Made by a program: the position numbers and the translations under genes. The notes beneath the pieces are model-generated. The model had not been told where the DNA came from and ran no database searches. It saw only the letters and a program-made list of their open reading frames with translations. Shown here piece after piece: positions 26,998-41,412 of a stretch of 45,032 nucleotides of DNA. Numbering within the stretch: position 1 is the first letter of the stretch; every line of letters begins with the position of its first letter. Origin of the DNA: Candidatus Staskawiczbacteria bacterium RIFOXYC1_FULL_38_18 (GTDB taxonomy: Bacteria; Patescibacteriota; Minisyncoccia; Minisyncoccales; Staskawiczbacteraceae); assembly GCA_001822095.1 (NCBI GenBank), contig MHPP01000032.1:1-45032 (forward strand), in the 5' to 3' direction.

Positions 26998-27095
26998 AGT
27001 TTTCAGCCCTTAACCCCTCCGAAAGGAGCAAGCCGGGCATATCTCCTAATATCGTCAGTTACGTTTCAACGCAACCCGATTGAAGGAGATTGAAG

Positions 27096-27728
27096 ATGTC
27101 AGAGCAAAGATGTGGTGGATGTGGAAAAAAATTTCAACAGAACGATTCCGACCGAATCACGAGTAGCGGGAACGCTCTCGGCCGGGAGCCGGACAAGCAG
27201 TTGTGCTACAACTGCGCCTTGGAAAAGGTGACCGGCGGATCTTGCCCCGAAGAAGGCGACTTTAACACAGCGCGCCTGATTTCAGGAGAGATGACCGACC
27301 AGGAGTGGAGATGGTTGCAGGAAGACATGCGAGCTGTCGAAGAGAGTCGTTCCATCATCGAGCCTGACTCTGATGACGAGGACGATTACTACAACGACCC
27401 CGCGTGGTGCTATCGGTGCAACAGGGATACCGCTTTTTGCAAGTGCATTTGCTACGAGTGTGGCGAATTGCTTGAAGAATGCGAATGTCACTGCGCGCTC
27501 TGCGACACACCCAAGCCCGGCGGCGGACTTTGTGAAACCCATGCTCCAGGGTGGAACGAGTCTGTACAGGGTCCTGTCCCTTCAAACAGTGAGGAGGTCG
27601 GGCAATGTGAAGGCTGCGGCATCACTTTTAACATTGTGTTCGAGATTGAATCTGAGTTTCCGACTCCGTCGAAGACTATGAGATTCCTGTCTCGGCACAA
27701 CCGTAAAAAGTGCCTGAAATGCAGCTAA
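27096..27728 (+). CDS. Multi-zinc-finger/ribbon Cys-rich hypothetical protein
   Basis: SD GAAGGAGA; CGGCGKKF, CYNC, CYRC...CKCICYECGELLEECECHCALC, CEGCGITF, CLKC. Confidence 0.7.
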   Translation: MSEQRCGGCGKKFQQNDSDRITSSGNALGREPDKQLCYNCALEKVTGGSCPEEGDFNTARLISGEMTDQEWRWLQEDMRAVEESRSIIEPDSDDEDDYYNDPAWCYRCNRDTAFCKCICYECGELLEECECHCALCDTPKPGGGLCETHAPGWNESVQGPVPSNSEEVGQCEGCGITFNIVFEIESEFPTPSKTMRFLSRHNRKKCLKCS

Positions 27729-31586: not shown

Positions 31587-32261
31587 ATGAACTATCCGAA
31601 TTTTGACGAGGAAAAAAAGTTGTGGAAAAAGGGGTATAATTTTGTTGCAGGACTGGATGAAGCCGGAAGGGGTCCTTTGGCCGGACCGGTGGTGGCAGGA
31701 GCAGTTATTATAAATCCGAAGCACGGAATTCTAATTTCGGATTTAAAAATTCGGGATTCAAAACAAATGTCGGCTAATCAGCGCGAGGATGTTTATGAAA
31801 AAATAACCGTGTGTAAAGATATAACGTGGGGAGTGGGGATTGTTTCGGAAAAAGTTATAGATAAAATAAATATTTTGGAAGCAACAAAACTGGCAATGCA
31901 AAAAGCCATAAATAATTTACTTTCGCGCAACCCTCGTCATAAATTACGCTATCGCGCGAAAAGTGATGATGGTTTATTTTTGTTGATTGACGGGAATATG
32001 AATTTTGGATGGGGCTATAAATATAAATCTATAATAAAGGGCGACCAGAAGGTTTTTTCAATTTCCGCAGCTTCTATTATAGCAAAGGTAACTCGGGATC
32101 GCATAATGCGAAAATATCACAAAAAATATCCAAATTATGGTTTTGACAAACACAAGGGATATGGCACCAAGTCGCACTTTGCCAGTATCAAAAAATATGG
32201 GCCGTGCAAGATCCATCGGAAGACATTCCGGCCCGCAGGTCTGGAGTTATCCACAGCTTGA
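31587..32261 (+). CDS. rnhB: Ribonuclease HII
   Basis: VAGLDEAGRGPLAGPVVAGAVI; RDSKQMSANQRE. Confidence 0.95.
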   Translation: MNYPNFDEEKKLWKKGYNFVAGLDEAGRGPLAGPVVAGAVIINPKHGILISDLKIRDSKQMSANQREDVYEKITVCKDITWGVGIVSEKVIDKINILEATKLAMQKAINNLLSRNPRHKLRYRAKSDDGLFLLIDGNMNFGWGYKYKSIIKGDQKVFSISAASIIAKVTRDRIMRKYHKKYPNYGFDKHKGYGTKSHFASIKKYGPCKIHRKTFRPAGLELSTA

Positions 32262-32293
32262 CGTTTGTTTTTGGTTTATAAAAAAAGTATAAT
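32245..32293 (+). promoter_or_regulatory. Promoter module copy 1: DnaA-box-like TTATCCACA + TTGTTT-N17-TATAAT
   Basis: AGTTATCCACAGCTTGA repeated at 36049; DnaA-box end to -10 start is 33 nt in both copies. Confidence 0.6.
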
Positions 32294-32321
32294 TAAGAAA
32301 TTAAAATTTAAAAACAAAAAT

Positions 32322-32810
32322 ATGGACAAATCAAAAGGGTCATCTTTGGTGTTTATTTTTATATTAATTTTAATAATTGTGGTTTCTCTTGCCGGCGGAG
32401 CGATACTGGGAGTTTATTATCAAGGCCAGCAAAAGCCAACGACCTCAACTATCGTGCAGGAAAATAGCGAGGCGTTTGCCGCCATGCCCGCCCTGATTGG
32501 CAACTTAAACTCGTCTATATTTCTTCCAATAACAGCCCACGGAAACGTGAAAAAAATTGACGCTAATAAAATTACCTTAAACAACGGCCAGGAAGATTTT
32601 ACAATAAATGTTAACGCCGATGCAGATGTTAATAAATTTATTGCCGACCCGGCTCAAAAGAAGGCTACAGGGGATAGCACAAACTATATTCCTCAAACAA
32701 TTAAGTTTTTAGACATTAAAGTTGGAGATACAGTAGATATTTATGTAAAAGTTTTACAAAGCGGCCAATTGCAGGGTTTTTCGGTTATGATATATCCGAT
32801 TTCAAAATAA
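32322..32810 (+). CDS. Single-TM anchored protein with small beta-rich (DUF5666-like) extracellular domain, paralog 1
   Basis: N-terminal TM; GNVKKIDANKITLNNGQEDFTINV...IKFLDIKVGDTVDIYVKVLQSGQLQGFSVMIYPISK. Confidence 0.65.
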   Translation: MDKSKGSSLVFIFILILIIVVSLAGGAILGVYYQGQQKPTTSTIVQENSEAFAAMPALIGNLNSSIFLPITAHGNVKKIDANKITLNNGQEDFTINVNADADVNKFIADPAQKKATGDSTNYIPQTIKFLDIKVGDTVDIYVKVLQSGQLQGFSVMIYPISK

Positions 32811-32823
32811 ATTATTTAATTTT

Positions 32824-35800
32824 TTGTCTAAAGAATTTTTAAGCATAAATAAAACAAAGTATTTTTGGACAATTATTTTTGTTTTATTTTTGTTTGGTTT
32901 AAACTTTGTGAATCCTGCAAAAGCTTCTACGGAAATATACGGCCAGACTTTTAACTATTTGTGTTCAGGAGGAAGTGGCACAAGGTGTGCGTTGCAATTA
33001 ATCGGAAGCATCGGGAAGCCCTGCGAAAACGAGTTTGGCCGTAAAGACGATTCTATGTGCAAGCCTAAAACTAATAAGCCCATCTGCAGTAGAGGTAAAT
33101 GTATATTAGGACCGGCAACTGCGGGCAAATCATGTGCTACTGTTGGTGATAATGCGATTTGTGCTCATGAAGATGGAAAATGTGGCGGTCCTTTTGCGCC
33201 GGCCGAACAACCTCCGGCCGAGGATAAGCTTTGCAAAAGCTCGGGCGGGCATTCTCCTGTATATAGCACAGACGGCCTTGAGTGGAGATGGTCTTGTTTT
33301 CCTGTTGGCACAGGAGGAACGGTTGATGCTTCCTGCCACACCCCTAAAAAATCTGCCCCGGGGGAATGTGGAGGTCCTTTTGAGCCGTCGGAGAAACCAC
33401 CAACATTGGATAAACTCTGCAAAAATAACGGCTGGGCTTCTGTTATAAATTCAGACGACCCTTATTATTGGACATGGGATTGTAATCCATCGGGGTTAGA
33501 TAATAGCAAGCCTGCTTTTTGTAAAGCTCCTAAAAAAAAGATTGATGGATTTTGCGGTAAGGACAACGGGTTTGTTTTCACACCTACAGCCGAAGCATTG
33601 CAACCTCCGTCATCTGGAAATCAGCTTTGCAAACAAGGTACGGATTTTAATTCTGCAATTGGAAAAACCAGCTTAATGTCAATTGGAAAAACCAAAACTT
33701 GGGAGTGGTATTGTTTTGGTCAGGCGGGGGGAGTGGATGCGCCGTGCAAAACACTACCGCCAGAATCTACTAATGGGAAGTGCGGGGCGTTTATTCAGGG
33801 AAAAACATTTGAAAACCTAACCGCCGATAACGAGAATTTATGTGACATCGGGCTGTCATCTGATTTTGAGTTAAGCAATGATGTTAGATGGAAATGGAAT
33901 TGTATAGGTACGGGCGCAGGAACAAGTGCTCTTTGTTATGCGTGGAAGAAAGAATTGCTGAATATGTGCGGGCCGGCGGTAAATAAAGTTATTGATAGTA
34001 CTGTCTGCACTCATTTCGCTATTGGCACTATTGCTGATGAATTGTGCAATCCTGGATATACGCCATGGCAAAATCAATTTTTCTACGATAAGCATTATTG
34101 CGCATGGGAATGCACTACCAACTTAGGACCCCCCGTTCAGCAGTGCCACAGCCAGGTTGTCCTTGGTCCAAATTGTGGGCGTGCCATCACGAAAGAATAT
34201 GCATCAGGCACTTTGTCTGTACCAGTTGACGATGCATGCTCGGGAGAGGAATTAACTTATTATGTCGATGACGAAAAAAATTTAGTATTCGATTCAAACA
34301 CAGTTAAGTGGACATGTAAAAGTAATATCGGGGGTGCCGATAGTGAATTGTGTACCGCCAGTCGCAAACCAGGTCAATACGATGCAGCTTGCGGTATTTT
34401 TAAGAATTATCCTGCAGGCACTGGAGCGGTGCCGGCTATCCATGCGTGTAATTCGGTTTCGCATCCAGATAATTCCGCAAAATTAAAATTTGTTAAGGAC
34501 TATGCATCCTGGATATGTGTAAGCAATTTGGGCGGCAAGTCCAGTGATACTTGCGAGGCAAGACAGTCATCCTCCAGCACTTGTGATGCAAGAACAGCCT
34601 GCAGTAATCACGGGACTTGTTCGGTGCCGGTTACGGGCGGTACGGCAATTAATATTTTTAACGGATTTATCGGCAGTATTTTAAATAGTTATTTAAGCCA
34701 AGTTTATAATCAATTATTTGCAGTTACAACACCAAGCGCCTGTTCTTGCAGTAGTTGTAAATGCGATAATGGATGGACAGGAAAAAATTGTAGTACGCCA
34801 ACAACCTGTACGCCAACCTGCTATAGTTCTATAGCTTGGGCTACTTGTCAGCCCGGAACAACTCAAACAGGTTCATGCGCTTCAACTAATTGTGGAACAA
34901 CACAATATATAATTTCAACAAGGCCTTGTCCTCCTGTCTCCACATGCAATTCGGCGGCAGATTGCAACGGCCGTGGAACGTGTAAGGTAGACGGCACATG
35001 TGATTGCGGGAATAGCGGTTATACTGGAACGAACTGCGAAACTTTAATTGCGGGGAATTGTTCAGCGCTGGGCGAGTGCAATAATCACGGAGTTTGCGCA
35101 GCCGGCGATACTTGCTCGTGCGATGCCGGATGGGCTTTGCCTGATTGTTCTAAGGAAATTTGTACGTCTTGGACATATAATGCTTGGACTCCAGCAACTT
35201 GTCCGTCCTCAGGAGCTCAAACAAGAACAATAGCTACCCGTACGCCAACAGGATGCACGGGTGGAACCCCAGAGGCTCTTTCGAGAACCTGCACACATGG
35301 GTCTGTCGTTAATGGAACCTGCGGAACAGCTGATGACAAAATATATCCTCAAAGCGCTACGGGATTTGGCAGTGATACTATTTGCGCAACTGGAACAGCC
35401 AGCCCAAATCCTGTTTTTCCGACTCCGGGTAATAGTGTTGAATGGAAATGTATTGGCTCCAGCGGATCGGGTCCATGGTGTATGGCTTCTCATTGTAATC
35501 CTGCAACAGACTGCAACGGCCACGGAAATTGTAATGCAACTTCAGCAGAAAGCTCTTGGTGCACCTGTAACACAGGCTGGAATACCTCAGTAAGTTGCGC
35601 AGACTGCGCCACAGATTATTATCCAACAGTATTTTACGCGTCTTCATCGGCAAACGCTTGTGTTGTGCGCTGCACCCCAACAACTTGTGGCGACCACGGA
35701 TATTGTAACTATGCAACCCCAACAACCAGCCAGCCATGCACTTGTTTAGAAGGTTGGGCAGGCAGTACCTGTAATGTTTGCGCCACAAATTATTATCCGG

Positions 35801-36045
35801 TGGTGGGTAGTTGTGTGTATTGCAACCCGGAAACAACTTGCAATAGCCACGGAGCGTGTAACCCAAATCCAGCAGATATTTATAACATGTGTTATCAGTG
35901 CGACACTGACTGGATTGGTGGTGATTGCGGAACGCCCCAGCCATATAATTGTAATACTCAAACGTGGCAATGCACAGCGTGTACTAGTGGTATGTGCGTA
36001 TTTGGCGACAAGGCGCAGTGTCAGGGATATTGCGTCCCTTTTTAG
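32824..36045 (+). CDS. Giant secreted Cys-rich protein: ~8 W-x-W/C repeats, ~6 EGF-like modules, one TSP1-like module (TTG start)
   Basis: Signal peptide-like N-term; repeats such as CGGPFAPAEQPPAEDKLCKSSGGH...WRWSCFPVGTGGTVDASC; EGF-like CNGRGTCKVDGTCDCGNSGYTGTNC; WTYNAWTPATCPSSGAQTRT. Confidence 0.85.
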   Translation: MSKEFLSINKTKYFWTIIFVLFLFGLNFVNPAKASTEIYGQTFNYLCSGGSGTRCALQLIGSIGKPCENEFGRKDDSMCKPKTNKPICSRGKCILGPATAGKSCATVGDNAICAHEDGKCGGPFAPAEQPPAEDKLCKSSGGHSPVYSTDGLEWRWSCFPVGTGGTVDASCHTPKKSAPGECGGPFEPSEKPPTLDKLCKNNGWASVINSDDPYYWTWDCNPSGLDNSKPAFCKAPKKKIDGFCGKDNGFVFTPTAEALQPPSSGNQLCKQGTDFNSAIGKTSLMSIGKTKTWEWYCFGQAGGVDAPCKTLPPESTNGKCGAFIQGKTFENLTADNENLCDIGLSSDFELSNDVRWKWNCIGTGAGTSALCYAWKKELLNMCGPAVNKVIDSTVCTHFAIGTIADELCNPGYTPWQNQFFYDKHYCAWECTTNLGPPVQQCHSQVVLGPNCGRAITKEYASGTLSVPVDDACSGEELTYYVDDEKNLVFDSNTVKWTCKSNIGGADSELCTASRKPGQYDAACGIFKNYPAGTGAVPAIHACNSVSHPDNSAKLKFVKDYASWICVSNLGGKSSDTCEARQSSSSTCDARTACSNHGTCSVPVTGGTAINIFNGFIGSILNSYLSQVYNQLFAVTTPSACSCSSCKCDNGWTGKNCSTPTTCTPTCYSSIAWATCQPGTTQTGSCASTNCGTTQYIISTRPCPPVSTCNSAADCNGRGTCKVDGTCDCGNSGYTGTNCETLIAGNCSALGECNNHGVCAAGDTCSCDAGWALPDCSKEICTSWTYNAWTPATCPSSGAQTRTIATRTPTGCTGGTPEALSRTCTHGSVVNGTCGTADDKIYPQSATGFGSDTICATGTASPNPVFPTPGNSVEWKCIGSSGSGPWCMASHCNPATDCNGHGNCNATSAESSWCTCNTGWNTSVSCADCATDYYPTVFYASSSANACVVRCTPTTCGDHGYCNYATPTTSQPCTCLEGWAGSTCNVCATNYYPVVGSCVYCNPETTCNSHGACNPNPADIYNMCYQCDTDWIGGDCGTPQPYNCNTQTWQCTACTSGMCVFGDKAQCQGYCVPF

Positions 36046-36048
36046 AAA

Positions 36049-36097
36049 AGTTATCCACAGCTTGATATTTGTTTTTAAAAATTAAAAAAAGTATAAT
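36049..36097 (+). promoter_or_regulatory. Promoter module copy 2: DnaA-box-like TTATCCACA + TTGTTT-N17-TATAAT
   Basis: AGTTATCCACAGCTTGATATTTGTTTTT...AAAAAAAGTATAATTA, parallel to 32245-32293. Confidence 0.6.
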
Positions 36098-36132
36098 TAC
36101 GAAATAATTTTTAAAATTAGAAATTTACGCTT

Positions 36133-36582
36133 ATGGCAACAAATTCAAACAACAGCAGAAGTTTAGTAATTATATTAGTAGTGGCGGGAATAGTCATTTT
36201 TGTTTTAGGGGGAGTGGCGGGGGTTTTATTTCAAAATCAAAAAACAAACGGCACAATTGGGATTGGGACACCCGTAAATACTCCGGTGAAACTAGCGGAT
36301 AATTTAAAATCAAAAGCCATAAGCTCCATTATGCTTTATGGGAAGGTTGAAAGCATTTCCGGAAGAACCGTTAAAATTTCTAACAACGGGGATGTTGTTT
36401 CTGTTGCAATATTGGAAAACGCAATATTTTCCGCAGTAGACGCCTCCAAAAAATCACCGGTGCGGCAAGGCGCAAAATTTGAAGACATAAAAGTGGGGGA
36501 CAACCTAAACATTAGCGTAAAAGTTGCGGAAAATAATTCGTTTATTGGCGCCTCTGTTGTAATATTCCTTGCGCAAAAATAA
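36133..36582 (+). CDS. Single-TM anchored DUF5666-like protein, paralog 2
   Basis: GKVESISGRTVKISNNGDVVSVAI...KFEDIKVGDNLNISVKVAENNSFIGASVVIFLAQK. Confidence 0.65.
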   Translation: MATNSNNSRSLVIILVVAGIVIFVLGGVAGVLFQNQKTNGTIGIGTPVNTPVKLADNLKSKAISSIMLYGKVESISGRTVKISNNGDVVSVAILENAIFSAVDASKKSPVRQGAKFEDIKVGDNLNISVKVAENNSFIGASVVIFLAQK

Positions 36583-36588
36583 AACATC

Positions 36589-37041
36589 ATGAATAAAACA
36601 ATTTTAATCATCTTTTTTGCAATTATTTTTATACTTGTAGTTCTTTTTGCATTTGTTGCCGGAGTTTCTTTTCAAATGAAAAAAGATGCTCCTAAACTGC
36701 AAATTGGCGAAGAAAACGCCAAAACTGTGCAGGTTTTAACTTCAAGGCTGGTTCATTCAATTTATGCTTACGGAGAGGTAAAAAATATTTCGGGCAGAAA
36801 CATAACAATAAGCAACGGAAAAGACGACCTGACCGTTAAGATTAGAGACACTGCAAGTATTTTATTTTATAAAACTACAACGGCAAACCCAACGGGCGCG
36901 GCAAAGGAAATAAAATTTGAAGAAATAAAAAAGGGGCAGGCAATAAATATAAATTTAAAGCTTTTGCCAAACGGCTCAACCGAAGGAACCGCAATAACTA
37001 TTTTTGCCGAGCCGCCAATACCAGCGGTTATCAACAAATAG
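36589..37041 (+). CDS. Single-TM anchored DUF5666-like protein, paralog 3
   Basis: GEVKNISGRNITISNGKDDLTVKI...IKFEEIKKGQAININLKLLPNGSTEGTAITIF. Confidence 0.65.
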   Translation: MNKTILIIFFAIIFILVVLFAFVAGVSFQMKKDAPKLQIGEENAKTVQVLTSRLVHSIYAYGEVKNISGRNITISNGKDDLTVKIRDTASILFYKTTTANPTGAAKEIKFEEIKKGQAININLKLLPNGSTEGTAITIFAEPPIPAVINK

Positions 37042-37090
37042 TTGTTTTTAAAACGATTTAATTTTTTAAGTTTTTAGTTTTTTATAATCC

Positions 37091-40000
37091 ATGCAGACAA
37101 AAACAATAAAAATAATAAGCTTGCCAATTTTGGCTTTTGCTATTTTTTTATTTCTGACTGCTTTTGGAGCCGTAGAAGCAATTAATTCAAAAATTCCCTG
37201 CACCTGTCCTAGCGGCGGCACAGTATGCGCAAGCGCTTTTTGTCCTACCGATACAATGTGTCAGGAAGGATATTGTAATGACGGCTCAACTAATTTGATT
37301 TGTCCGCTTAATTGTCCCCTATATAATTTTAATGAATGCTCTGCGCCATGTTACAGAACTGAAATTGGTCCATGTCAATATACGGCCGTGCCGGGCATCC
37401 CCTTTATGTGCGTGCCAGATATATCCTATCCGGATCCAAGTTGTTCAATGGGTTTTGATTGTACAGGAAGTGGGACAGGCGGTGGCGGTGGCGGTGGGTT
37501 AATTGGCACATGCGCGACTTATGGATTGAGCGCAGGAAATGCTTGTATTAGTGAAGATGTTGGAGGCGGGCAGGGAAGTTCTTGTTCGTCTAATTCCGAT
37601 TGCCAGCCAGCAACTGGCCAAAAATATTGCGATTTAAGCACGGGCCAGTGCTCCACAGACGGAAATGGACTAATTTGCTCTCTTGATGTAGAATGTGGTC
37701 TTGGCACTTCGGTAAGCAGGTGTAATATTGGCGGAACATGTTCTGTCTCCGGGGATGGCGATGCATGCTCAACCAGCGCCGACTGCGGGGCATTAACGCC
37801 AAAATGCGATGAATCGGGGAAATGTGTGTTAACTAATTCTGGCGGTATATCCTGCGCAACCGATGCAGAATGCGCATTTAGATGCGCAAGCAGTGGTTTG
37901 GGAGTCAACAACCAATGCGTGCAGGGAGGCGATGGCGCGCCTTGTTATAACTCCATGTATCATACGCCGGACGATAATTTGTGCAAGCCTTATGGATGCG
38001 ATGACGCAAATCAACGATGTGTGCAGGGCGGAACCGGTAATTCCTGCGGAGGCCCTAATGATTATGTTACGTGCGAGCCCGATTGCACAATCAGCGGTAA
38101 TTGCGCTTTATATAGGTGCAATACGCAAAACCAGCGATGCGAAACGGGGCTGGCGGGAGGAATTATCTGCAATCAGAACGACCCTTTGGCTTGCAAATAC
38201 AGGTGCGCCACAAATTTTACTTGTTCTTCGGGAGGATTTGGGGCGGTGTGCGACCCATTTGGCAATCCAGACGCCTGTAAATTTGGTTGCGACCCAAATC
38301 CAAGCAGCCCAAGTTATATGAGATGCATTCAAGGACTTTACACTGAATTCCCTTGTAATATTTTTCAAACAGGAGATGCCTGCGCGTATAAATGTTCGGG
38401 AGAATCATGTGCATTGCAGGGGTGGAATAAGTATTATTACTCTCCATACACCACCACGCCCATTCCAAGCGACCCAAGAAGTTGTACCGATGATACAAAT
38501 TGCGCATATGGCTGTAATGCTTCTTTGCAATGCGTTCAGGGAATAGGAACAGGAGAATGGTGTACGCCCATACCTGGGAATCCTAATTCAACAGTTCCGT
38601 GTGATTACGGATGTGTTGGAAATAGATGTGTTCTAGGAAGTGGAGGTCCATTGTGCGGGCCTTCAAATGACGGAGCCGATTGTATAACAAGATGCGGAGC
38701 AACAAGCAATCCCTTAAACCCCTTAAAACCTTATCCTGATGATTATTTTGCATATTCTTGCATGCAAGGCGTTTCTACTGATTCTTTACCCTGTACGGTC
38801 GATTCGCAGTGCGGATATAGTTGTAACGAATATGACCAATGCGTTCCGTTTGGCGGAGGCGCTAGTTGTGACCCTTATAATTCGTTTTCATGCGGTTATC
38901 CGGAATGTGATCCGACCACAACCCCCTTTGACCCGGACGGGTGCGGAGGATGTGGAAATTTTTGCGGGCCAAATGGATATTGGTTTGCTTGCCCCTCAGT
39001 AAATCATTTAGTGGATCCACGCGATTCGGCCGGGCAATGTTTGTGCTATCCTAATCAAAACCCCGCCTTGGGATTTACCTGCGGGTCAAACGATTTTTTT
39101 GAACCGCACGTTAACACCCCGCCATACGCCCAACCGGTAACGTGCAGCCAATGCGCGGTGCAACAGCCCCCATATATAACAGGTCTTTCGCTTGCTCAAA
39201 ATCAATGTACCGGAATAGTGGGGCAGTCAGCGGTCAACCTTCAATGGGTTTATAACAGCCCCGACGATATTGATGAATTAAAATATGAGCTTCAAATAGC
39301 AAGAGACGAAGACACAAATTTTGATGACCCTGTTTTTTACAAAACAGTATTGCATTCCGCGCTAAACGGATCTACGAATTTTTCTCCGACTATTCCAATA
39401 ATATTTGGCGCAGACGTTCCCGGTTGCAATGAAAACATAGGGCAAACTTGTTATTTGAGTTTCGGCAAAAATTATCGTTGGGGAGTTAAAGTAACAGACG
39501 AAAACAATAAGGCTTCTGTGTGGCATTATTATAAGCCCGGCGCCTGTAGCGGACCGAGTTTGGATTTACTATACCTTGAGGGAAATGAAACATGGGTGGA
39601 GGGCACAACACACCAAATCGCGTGGACATCAGAAAATTTGGGTTCATCTACGGTTAATGTCTATTTTGGATCCACCTATTTTGGAACCACCTTTATTGGC
39701 TCGGCTCCGGCGTCTCAGAATTTTTATAATTGGGCAATACCCGTTCCTTCATGGTTGGTCGATCCTAGACATATTAGTATAATAACAACTACAAGTTTGG
39801 GACAAACGCTATCGGATGAAAGTCTTGGCCTTGTTTCAATTTCGCCTTGCGTTCCAAGTTGGACATGCAACGGACTTAGTTGTAGTGATCCAAACTCGTG
39901 GGGCGAATGTTCTGCTTCCGGAACTCAAACAAGAAGCGTAATAGATACAAACAATTGCGGAACAACAACCGGAAAACCAGCCGAATCTCAAACCTGCACA

Positions 40001-41044
40001 TGTGTTCCTGTTTGGCCATCGGCTTCTCCCGGTTGCACCTCCTGGTCTGTGTGTCCGGCTGGAGGAGGAACACAAGATAGAACTTGCACTTCAACGAATT
40101 GCGGAACACAGACAAGACAAGAGTCGCAAACCTGCACGCCTCCTCCCACTCTCACTGTTACATCTCCGAACGGAAATGAATCATGGACGCAAAGAACATG
40201 GGAAAATATTACATGGACGACTCAAAATATAGCCGGTGGATCAAACATCGATATAGATATTATACCTTTTCCATCGGGCAGTCCGCAGCAAATATATTTT
40301 GTTCCCGCATACGAAGGCATTTATACATGGAATGTTGGTCGGTTAGTCGATGGTTTTTCTTATGTACCAGTCGGCCAGTATAAAATTAGGATTAGTGTTT
40401 GGGATCAGGGAAGTGGAACTATGATATATGACGAGAGTGACAATTTTTTCACTATCACTAACCCTGTCGCTATAGTAAACACTAGTTCTATGCTGGCAAG
40501 TATCAGTAATATAACGTCGGGTATTAAGGATGCAGTGGCCAGCGTAAGCAGTGTTATAAAAAATGCGGTATTTAACACAATAATACAATTATTTAAAGCA
40601 ATAACAAATTTTGCGGGCACCGACGCTAAAGCGGATACTTGCACCGAATATGGAAATTTCACTACCGACCGGGCTCAGGCAGGCGTGTTTTCCACTCCGC
40701 CTCATCCGGGACCGTTTGTTTTCTTTGAATATAGCCCGGACAAACCCGAGCTGAACCGCCAAGTTTCTTTTTCTGACATTTATTCCCTTTGTTATGACAG
40801 CCTTGGAAACTCTTCTTTGTGCAAAAACACATCTTCTAACTATATTTGGATTTTTTATGACAACCCCAGCCAGCCCGCTTATACCAAAGGGAGCGCCTCC
40901 CATGTGTTTTCTGTTAACAATAATCCAGATGTAAATTTGCAAATTTGCGACGCCGACAATATTTGTTGTTCTGGTAATAAAGATATTGAGTTTGAGCAAG
41001 AGAACGCTAATTTGCCCAACTGGAAAGAAATTTCTCCGTTCTAA
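37091..41044 (+). CDS. Giant secreted Cys-rich repeat protein with TSP1-like, Kre9/KNH-like and C-terminal PKD-like regions
   Basis: Signal peptide-like N-term; ~12 repeats of the type QCVQGGxGxxC; YLEGNETWVEGTTHQIAWTSENL and SPNGNESWTQRTWENITWTTQNI. Confidence 0.85.
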   Translation: MQTKTIKIISLPILAFAIFLFLTAFGAVEAINSKIPCTCPSGGTVCASAFCPTDTMCQEGYCNDGSTNLICPLNCPLYNFNECSAPCYRTEIGPCQYTAVPGIPFMCVPDISYPDPSCSMGFDCTGSGTGGGGGGGLIGTCATYGLSAGNACISEDVGGGQGSSCSSNSDCQPATGQKYCDLSTGQCSTDGNGLICSLDVECGLGTSVSRCNIGGTCSVSGDGDACSTSADCGALTPKCDESGKCVLTNSGGISCATDAECAFRCASSGLGVNNQCVQGGDGAPCYNSMYHTPDDNLCKPYGCDDANQRCVQGGTGNSCGGPNDYVTCEPDCTISGNCALYRCNTQNQRCETGLAGGIICNQNDPLACKYRCATNFTCSSGGFGAVCDPFGNPDACKFGCDPNPSSPSYMRCIQGLYTEFPCNIFQTGDACAYKCSGESCALQGWNKYYYSPYTTTPIPSDPRSCTDDTNCAYGCNASLQCVQGIGTGEWCTPIPGNPNSTVPCDYGCVGNRCVLGSGGPLCGPSNDGADCITRCGATSNPLNPLKPYPDDYFAYSCMQGVSTDSLPCTVDSQCGYSCNEYDQCVPFGGGASCDPYNSFSCGYPECDPTTTPFDPDGCGGCGNFCGPNGYWFACPSVNHLVDPRDSAGQCLCYPNQNPALGFTCGSNDFFEPHVNTPPYAQPVTCSQCAVQQPPYITGLSLAQNQCTGIVGQSAVNLQWVYNSPDDIDELKYELQIARDEDTNFDDPVFYKTVLHSALNGSTNFSPTIPIIFGADVPGCNENIGQTCYLSFGKNYRWGVKVTDENNKASVWHYYKPGACSGPSLDLLYLEGNETWVEGTTHQIAWTSENLGSSTVNVYFGSTYFGTTFIGSAPASQNFYNWAIPVPSWLVDPRHISIITTTSLGQTLSDESLGLVSISPCVPSWTCNGLSCSDPNSWGECSASGTQTRSVIDTNNCGTTTGKPAESQTCTCVPVWPSASPGCTSWSVCPAGGGTQDRTCTSTNCGTQTRQESQTCTPPPTLTVTSPNGNESWTQRTWENITWTTQNIAGGSNIDIDIIPFPSGSPQQIYFVPAYEGIYTWNVGRLVDGFSYVPVGQYKIRISVWDQGSGTMIYDESDNFFTITNPVAIVNTSSMLASISNITSGIKDAVASVSSVIKNAVFNTIIQLFKAITNFAGTDAKADTCTEYGNFTTDRAQAGVFSTPPHPGPFVFFEYSPDKPELNRQVSFSDIYSLCYDSLGNSSLCKNTSSNYIWIFYDNPSQPAYTKGSASHVFSVNNNPDVNLQICDADNICCSGNKDIEFEQENANLPNWKEISPF

Positions 41045-41055
41045 TTAAAGCGAGC

Positions 41056-41083
41056 CCGCGGACATCGGGCGTCCGCGGTTTTT
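41056..41083 (+). terminator. Terminator of surface locus
   Basis: CCGCGGAC-atcgggc-GTCCGCGGTTTTT. Confidence 0.85.
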
Positions 41084-41166: not shown

Positions 41167-41412
41167 ATGGCTGTTCCAAGGCACAAACATACAAGGTCAA
41201 AAGTGGGCAAGACCCGGATGCATAAAAACATCAAGCGGGTTGTTTTAGGTGTTTGCCCAAAATGCAAAAAACCTGTTTTGTCGCACACAGTTTGCAGAAA
41301 CTGCGGATTTTATAAAGGGCAGGAAGTTATCAATGTTTTAGCCTCCTTAACAAAAAAAGAGAAAAAAGCAAGAGAAAAAGAGATTAAACAAGCCGAAGCG
41401 CAGCAAAAATAA
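41167..41412 (+). CDS. rpmF: 50S ribosomal protein L32
   Basis: [42 protein letters not shown]. Confidence 0.95.

Follow-up and report, generated by a model that had tools for sequence, protein, structure and literature searches.

How members of the CPR recognise and hold on to their hosts is still largely open, and most of them are uncultured. Several large surface proteins, and one pilus system, provide the closest comparisons for the locus described here. Peribacteria encode large Cys-rich secreted proteins, with a cluster average of 7% Cys, that have been proposed to serve in attachment (PMC4736985), and Vampirococcus has giant adhesive surface proteins with PKD/fibronectin domains (PMC8080830); extracellular Ig-like and PKD proteins are highly expressed in methanogen-parasitising Paceibacteria (PMC10936435), and in Saccharibacteria host binding is borne by pili (PMC12206443). 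The two ‘giant’ proteins of our locus resemble those of Peribacteria and Vampirococcus in being very long and signal-peptide-bearing, with a proposed role in attachment (PMC4736985, PMC8080830), whereas no OB-type membrane partner, fixed chromosomal slot or C-terminal tail is described in the passages of those two reports consulted. Published work makes host attachment plausible for this class (PMC4736985, PMC10936435, PMC8080830); the source bacterium is itself probably host-attached.

The stretch of DNA analysed (the ‘window’) is 45,032 nucleotides long and is one contig of the 0.69-Mb genome (a MAG; G000) of Candidatus Staskawiczbacteria bacterium RIFOXYC1_FULL_38_18. Working from left to right along the + strand, the conserved left border of the locus is rnhB (RNase HII; 31587..32261), identified by translation and from the neighbourhoods of relatives, and present in 32/36 genomes of the window's bacterial family. 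Next comes anchor 1 (32322..32810), with an N-terminal TM segment and an extracytoplasmic, OB-like domain remotely related to DUF5666, the fold being assigned via homology to anchor 2; it is 162 aa long from ATG 32322, which is a more likely start than TTG 32265, the first codon of the alternative ORF 32265-32810. Giant 1 (32824..36045; translation, Pfam, Cys/TM count) is a secreted protein of 1073 aa with a TTG start. Anchor 2 (36133..36582; BLASTP, AlphaFold2), the sequence used for modelling, and anchor 3 (36589..37041; BLASTP, profile), just 6 bp further downstream, again combine a TM segment with an OB-like domain; giant 2 (37091..41044; translation, Cys/TM count), secreted and 1317 aa long, is the last gene of the cassette. 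A strong intrinsic-terminator-like hairpin (41056..41078, +; 8 pairs, 7 of them G-C, then T5) lies between giant 2 and the right border, closing the cassette, and no terminator excess over shuffles was found for the region as a whole. The right border is rpmF (bL32; 41167..41412, +), followed by nusB, rnc and rpsP in an order kept in relatives. Translation of the window thus places the five ORFs as the first-pass annotation had them, all on the + strand; two giants and three anchors, co-directional and head-to-tail, bordered by rnhB and rpmF. Two further ORFs of the window may be mentioned here: a signal-peptide-bearing, Cys-poor protein of 437+ aa, cut by the contig end (43721-45032) and probably another surface protein, and a short ORF (27090-27728, +) with 20 Cys in 212 aa and a CGGCGKKF start, zinc-ribbon-like rather than secreted.

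The reading we favour, whose chances we put at about even, is that these genes form a polymorphic surface-adhesin cassette in a fixed rnhB-rpmF slot, with a C-terminal tail, and possibly the OB anchors, holding the giants at the surface or on a pilus. Across the window's bacterial family the rnhB-rpmF gap is a variable slot, the contents of which differ between relatives. It is empty or almost so in G022, G002, G018, G031 and G027; holds an anchor alone in G006; holds same-strand anchor-giant cassettes in G000, G019, G014, G024 and others (in G030 and G010 it is the rpmF side that is seen); holds a giant with no recognised anchor in G033; and holds cassettes on the opposite strand in G007, G004 and, as far as its contig extends, G011. 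The slot giants vary from 344 to 1500 aa and carry different domains, and most of the complete cassettes encode one protein with a PxWxE tail, usually at their 3' end. The giant in the slot of G024 (L042:9936-12167) has a Pretoxin-HINT domain (70.2 bits, cut-off 27.7) at its end, where the tail would be. An assembly artefact is unlikely, since the same slot borders recur in many genomes.

Both giants are very Cys-rich, as first described, with 100 Cys in 1073 aa (9.3%) and 104 in 1317 aa (7.9%), against 0-3% in nearly all other ORFs of the window. In each the Cys total is even and the first Cys (residue 46 in giant 1, residue 36 in giant 2) lies past a single N-terminal hydrophobic segment, which is followed by no further TM segment and by a C-terminus without a hydrophobic stretch; signals and TM segments were assigned by hydropathy, without a dedicated signal-peptide program. 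Neither has an LPXTG-TM C-terminus, in keeping with the reported lack of a sortase motif, and we can rule out that they are LPXTG/sortase substrates: their only TM segment is N-terminal and there is no C-terminal motif-TM-basic end. A sortase-family gene is present elsewhere in the genome (G000:C14:6739-7143, L254), though the giants lack its motif. The description of the giants as EGF-like holds for giant 1, in which Pfam EGF_Teneurin matches four stretches (28.6 bits, cut-off 24.3), but not for giant 2, which matches no Pfam family. Giant 1 has CG...C...W.C...C repeats in its N-terminal half, an EGF-like C-terminal half and no PxWxE tail; giant 2 has a Cys-rich N-terminal half and a Cys-poorer C-terminal part that ends in a PKD domain and tail. 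The two show no convincing similarity past their Cys-rich composition and are not paralogs. Giants of relatives contain PA14, PKD, Fib_succ_major, Metallophos and Pretoxin-HINT domains (Pfam), and the window pair have the features of the large Cys-rich surface proteins of CPR: more than 1000 aa, about 7% Cys or more, an N-terminal signal and no cytoplasmic domain. Disulfide formation among their 204 cysteines is unproven, because a whole-genome search of G000 gave no match for VKOR and a sub-threshold match only for Thioredoxin_4.

The end of giant 2 consists of a PKD (Ig-like) domain, at about residues 1209-1298 (40715..40984, +; AlphaFold2, Foldseek, Pfam in homologous C-termini), and the tail LPNWKEISPF, directly followed by the stop codon (41012..41044, +; pattern searches). 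In the AlphaFold2 model of this region the PKD domain has a pLDDT of mostly 90 or more, with strands to residue 111 of 130, and then gives way to a lower-confidence tail that is extended and without secondary structure; the best Foldseek matches are PKD domains of ColH/ColG collagenases and a carbohydrate-binding module. Giants of relatives end alike (LPDWKEISPF in L039, LPDWREISPF in L046), the consensus being PLPxW[KR]E[IV]xP(F). In the anchor loci, 21/735 ORFs have P.[WY].E within their last 18 residues, against 1.4 expected (Poisson 5e-18), and all 21 have an N-terminal TM/signal. As a DNA pattern (tail plus stop), the tail gave 78 matches in 69/247 genomes of the order, with 15 for the reversed-pattern control. 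A sample of the phylum, in which other classes showed no more tail matches than the control (5 beyond the order vs 10), had suggested that the tail is specific to the order; a sample of the class overturned this, with 42 matches in 33/264 genomes outside the order and 4 in the control. These tails often end in R, W or K in place of F, and at 9/10 loci inspected outside the order such a tail closes an open frame, which by eye is PKD-like in most cases. In sister orders (L255-L261), tail proteins ending in PxWxEIxPR/K stand beside other conserved neighbours, a ~155-aa family and a ligase-like protein.

Within a set of 68 tails selected by the pattern, conservation extends to columns that the pattern does not fix, with P at -4 (36/68), L at -3 (40/68), K/R at +1 (52/68) and the final F (41/68), and Pfam PKD_4 is found in 35/68 of the C-termini that bear them. 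No model in Pfam or NCBIfam describes the tail, no CTERM sorting model matches any of the 68 C-termini at E 0.1, and the literature searched, of which coverage is incomplete, yielded no description of tail or slot. Like the LPXTG/sortase, PEP-CTERM/exosortase and GlyGly-CTERM/rhombosortase signals, the tail is short, conserved and placed at the very C-terminus of secreted proteins that are otherwise unrelated; unlike them it lacks both a hydrophobic segment and a basic end, the motif meets the stop after the PKD domain, and no NCBIfam sorting model matches. PamR (CPR pilus-system RbmA-like, NF058578) is CPR- and pilus-linked by name and shows weak local similarity in the PKD region, but the best score is about 15 bits against a cut-off of 300 bits and the giants are not members. 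To judge from its sequence, the tail looks like an undescribed cell-surface address label. That the PKD-PxWxE[IV]xP end is a class-wide C-terminal sorting or docking signal without a membrane segment in Paceibacteria-type CPR, with the pilus machinery or an OB-fold membrane protein as candidate receptor, we put forward tentatively, as somewhat short of an even prospect.

The three anchors are mutually homologous, as the first-pass annotation held (BLASTP E 2e-18 for anchors 2 and 3, 6e-13 for 1 and 3, 4e-11 for 1 and 2), with 26 invariant columns in their alignment; each has one predicted, N-terminal TM segment and zero Cys. In their own genome their joint profile matches only these three, and profile searches find family members in 72/247 genomes of the order. 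AlphaFold2, run on anchor 2 with 33 homologs (pLDDT 86), predicts a TM helix (6-37) and a barrel of five to six strands (strands 66-146), for which the Foldseek matches are overwhelmingly OB folds (RPA, RMI1/2, Ten1, the SilB C-domain, YgiW); none has E < 0.001, so that the assignment rests on agreement among the matches rather than on a strong single one. The ectodomain of anchor 2 is, on this model, a putative outward-facing, OB-like barrel. A PDB sequence search with the anchor profile returned nothing useful.

The label ‘DUF5666-like’ is right as remote homology but not as literal membership, which the Pfam score rules out: the window anchors do not reach the gathering cut-off of DUF5666 (PF18914), and among anchor homologs 3/32 match the family, with a best E of 0.009. 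Remote homology follows from profile-profile comparison with 15 bona fide DUF5666 proteins of the order, at 98.3% for profile A4, which includes three DUF5666-type (MacAB-type) relatives, and 97.1% for A2, which leaves them out, and from ORFs matched by both anchor and DUF5666 profiles (e.g. G063:C18, G157:C74, G184:C10, G053:C27). Anchors and DUF5666 have the strand pattern V.kI....iTL ... f.dik.GD.v.I ... dG...a.sV.I in common, whereas bona fide members in the order lie mostly in sigma/MacAB-type loci. A recurrent gene order there (L106, L113, L115, L118, L119) is (sigma factor, anti-sigma-like) - DUF5666-type - MacA-like - ABC ATPase - MacB-like - second DUF5666-type.

A related-locus search from the window found a single relative. 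A count over 62 loci shows that anchor homologs do adjoin secreted giants: the gene directly after the anchor or anchor tandem encodes one (secreted, 300 aa or longer) in 40/66 cases, while other genes are followed by one in 33/587 (Fisher 1.7e-26); in the window's own family the counts are 12/19 and 10/174 (6e-9). Genes were called with a simple longest-ORF script and signals by hydropathy. The figure of 40/66 is conservative, since several scored failures (L030, L041, L045) do have a large protein downstream, with the TM segment past the threshold or a small gene between. Pairing with secreted giants, then, bears out what had been proposed from the window, but Cys-richness as a rule does not: a Cys content of 5% or more is reached by 17 of the 40 giants, whereas 15 stay below 2%, among them neighbours of DUF5666-type proteins that are more distantly related and belong to MacAB transporter loci, near MacA-like proteins. 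Anchors thus pair with large surface proteins generally.

It was suggested at first that the anchors assemble, export or tether the giants. Any of these may be so, with export the least likely, as the giants bear their own Sec-type N-termini. In its direct form, tethering would have the OB domain of an anchor bind the neighbouring giant, with tail and anchor either a receptor-ligand pair or independent; this we consider possible, if unlikely. Besides the strong gene adjacency, it would account for tandem anchors ahead of giants in the window, L037, L039 and L046; a single outward domain suits a dock, and peptide-binding OB folds are known, the RMI core with FANCM peptide being among the Foldseek matches. 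Against it, no giant lies downstream of the anchors in L031, L033, L043 and L047, and some giants have no anchors: the inverted cassettes of G007, G004 and G011 contain no recognisable one, making the OB anchors non-obligatory. Nor are tail and anchor firmly linked at genome level; 72 genomes of the order have anchors, 69 the strict tail and 25 both, against 20 expected, an overlap so slightly above expectation that the OB anchors are not the general tail receptor. In L172, L173, L198, L201 and L237, where there is no OB anchor, another small single-TM protein (80-110 aa, nearly Cys-free) is encoded upstream of tail-bearing giants.

A second possibility, which we regard as doubtful, is that tail-bearing giants work as adhesins at the tip of type IV pili or otherwise associated with them, taking the part of PilY1 and docking to minor pilins by the tail, the OB anchors being accessory inner-membrane assembly proteins. 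Tail-selected proteins lie within three genes of prepilin/pilD in 14/35 cases, compared with 0/144 genes of rnhB-slot loci, a background that represents a single chromosomal region and was taken instead of a within-locus control, which is uninformative because the loci themselves are pilus-rich. In L049, L172 and L197-L203 the tail-bearing protein is encoded after pilD and/or beside minor pilins. The almost complete operon of L200 comprises a pilB-type ATPase, response regulator, pilT-type ATPase, pilC, prepilin, pilD, small proteins, a 996-aa tail protein and a GspH-like minor pilin (most of these names being assigned by reading the sequence), so that the tail protein lies between pilD and the minor pilin. 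Anchors, too, follow pilD in L029, L048, L049, L082 and others. In Saccharibacteria, PilX2, a minor pilin that carries a large additional domain, mediates host binding (PMC12206443), and like PilX2 and the PilY1 tip adhesins, relatives of our locus encode a large secreted protein among minor pilin genes. Arguing the other way, 21/35 tail genes lie more than 3 genes from any pilin gene; the window cassette, like other rnhB-slot cassettes, has no pilus gene adjacent; and no PilC/PilY1 beta-propeller domain turned up when the two window giants and seven relatives were scanned with Pfam. The tail protein is part of the minor pilin operon in relatives such as L049, L172, L200 and L201, not at the window locus, and PilB/PilT-type ATPases are encoded on other contigs of this genome.

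It is improbable, in our estimation, that the anchors are generic DUF5666 proteins with a role of their own, in envelope sensing or as chaperones, that sit near giants only through operon inheritance. Such a role would fit the distant DUF5666 relatives in the sigma factor/anti-sigma/MacA-ABC-MacB loci cited above, where there is no giant adhesin (L106, L113, L115, L118, L119); yet the association of anchors with giants is seen at several unrelated chromosomal sites (rnhB-rpmF, the type IV pilus operon and others) and involves giants of very different lengths and domains. Least probable of all, and very much so, is that some giants, instead of staying in place as adhesins, are factors to be delivered or released, the tail being a secretion or maturation signal removed on export: the Pretoxin-HINT end of the L042 giant, the exposed, linear tail of the model and the sortase-family gene of the genome would agree with this, but the giants mostly have adhesion-type domains (EGF, PKD, PA14) and few catalytic ones, and the stop follows the tail directly, with no TM segment as in sortase/exosortase substrates.

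Returning to the surface-adhesin cassette, which we prefer, the reading is based on large modular giants that have an apparently cleavable Sec signal but lack a membrane anchor, on the small membrane proteins with an outward-facing OB-like domain encoded upstream, on the PKD domain and free linear tail that end the 3'-terminal giant and are shared by secreted PKD proteins across the class, and on cassette contents that differ between relatives. It is weakened by the near-chance overlap of anchors and tail among genomes of the order and by the few genes that combine the two: an anchor lies within two genes upstream of 5/36 tail-selected genes, against 4/373, and 13/40 of the giants that follow anchors bear the tail. 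The tail-less giant 1, the lack of an adjacent pilus gene in the window and the missing VKOR match also count against it. Sec would export the giants and signal peptidase would release them, whereupon the terminal PKD-tail could serve as an ‘address’: by docking to a partner in the membrane or pilus it would keep the giant at the surface, and the OB anchors encoded alongside are candidates for such a partner locally. The Cys-rich, EGF-like arms would then extend to bind host or neighbouring cells, and swapping of cassettes would alter binding specificity. The original partner of the tail may be the pilus, or the platform that assembles it, because tail-bearing giants of relatives sit in type IV pilus operons by pilD and minor pilins; such an arrangement would be PilY1-like in its working without the giant being a PilY1.

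Two elements, the PKD-LPNWKEISPF end of giant 2 and the variable chromosomal slot, go beyond the first-pass annotation. The rnhB-rpmF slot is a natural series of cassette swaps among close relatives and is comparable with host range. The tail offers a handle, readable from sequence alone, on surface proteins that probably act in host contact—otherwise unrelated giants across one class, often encoded with pilus genes—and it poses a concrete receptor question, namely what binds PxWxEIxP. If the sorting-signal reading is true, going through C-termini would reveal a large part of the surface proteins that a largely uncultured class uses in host contact.
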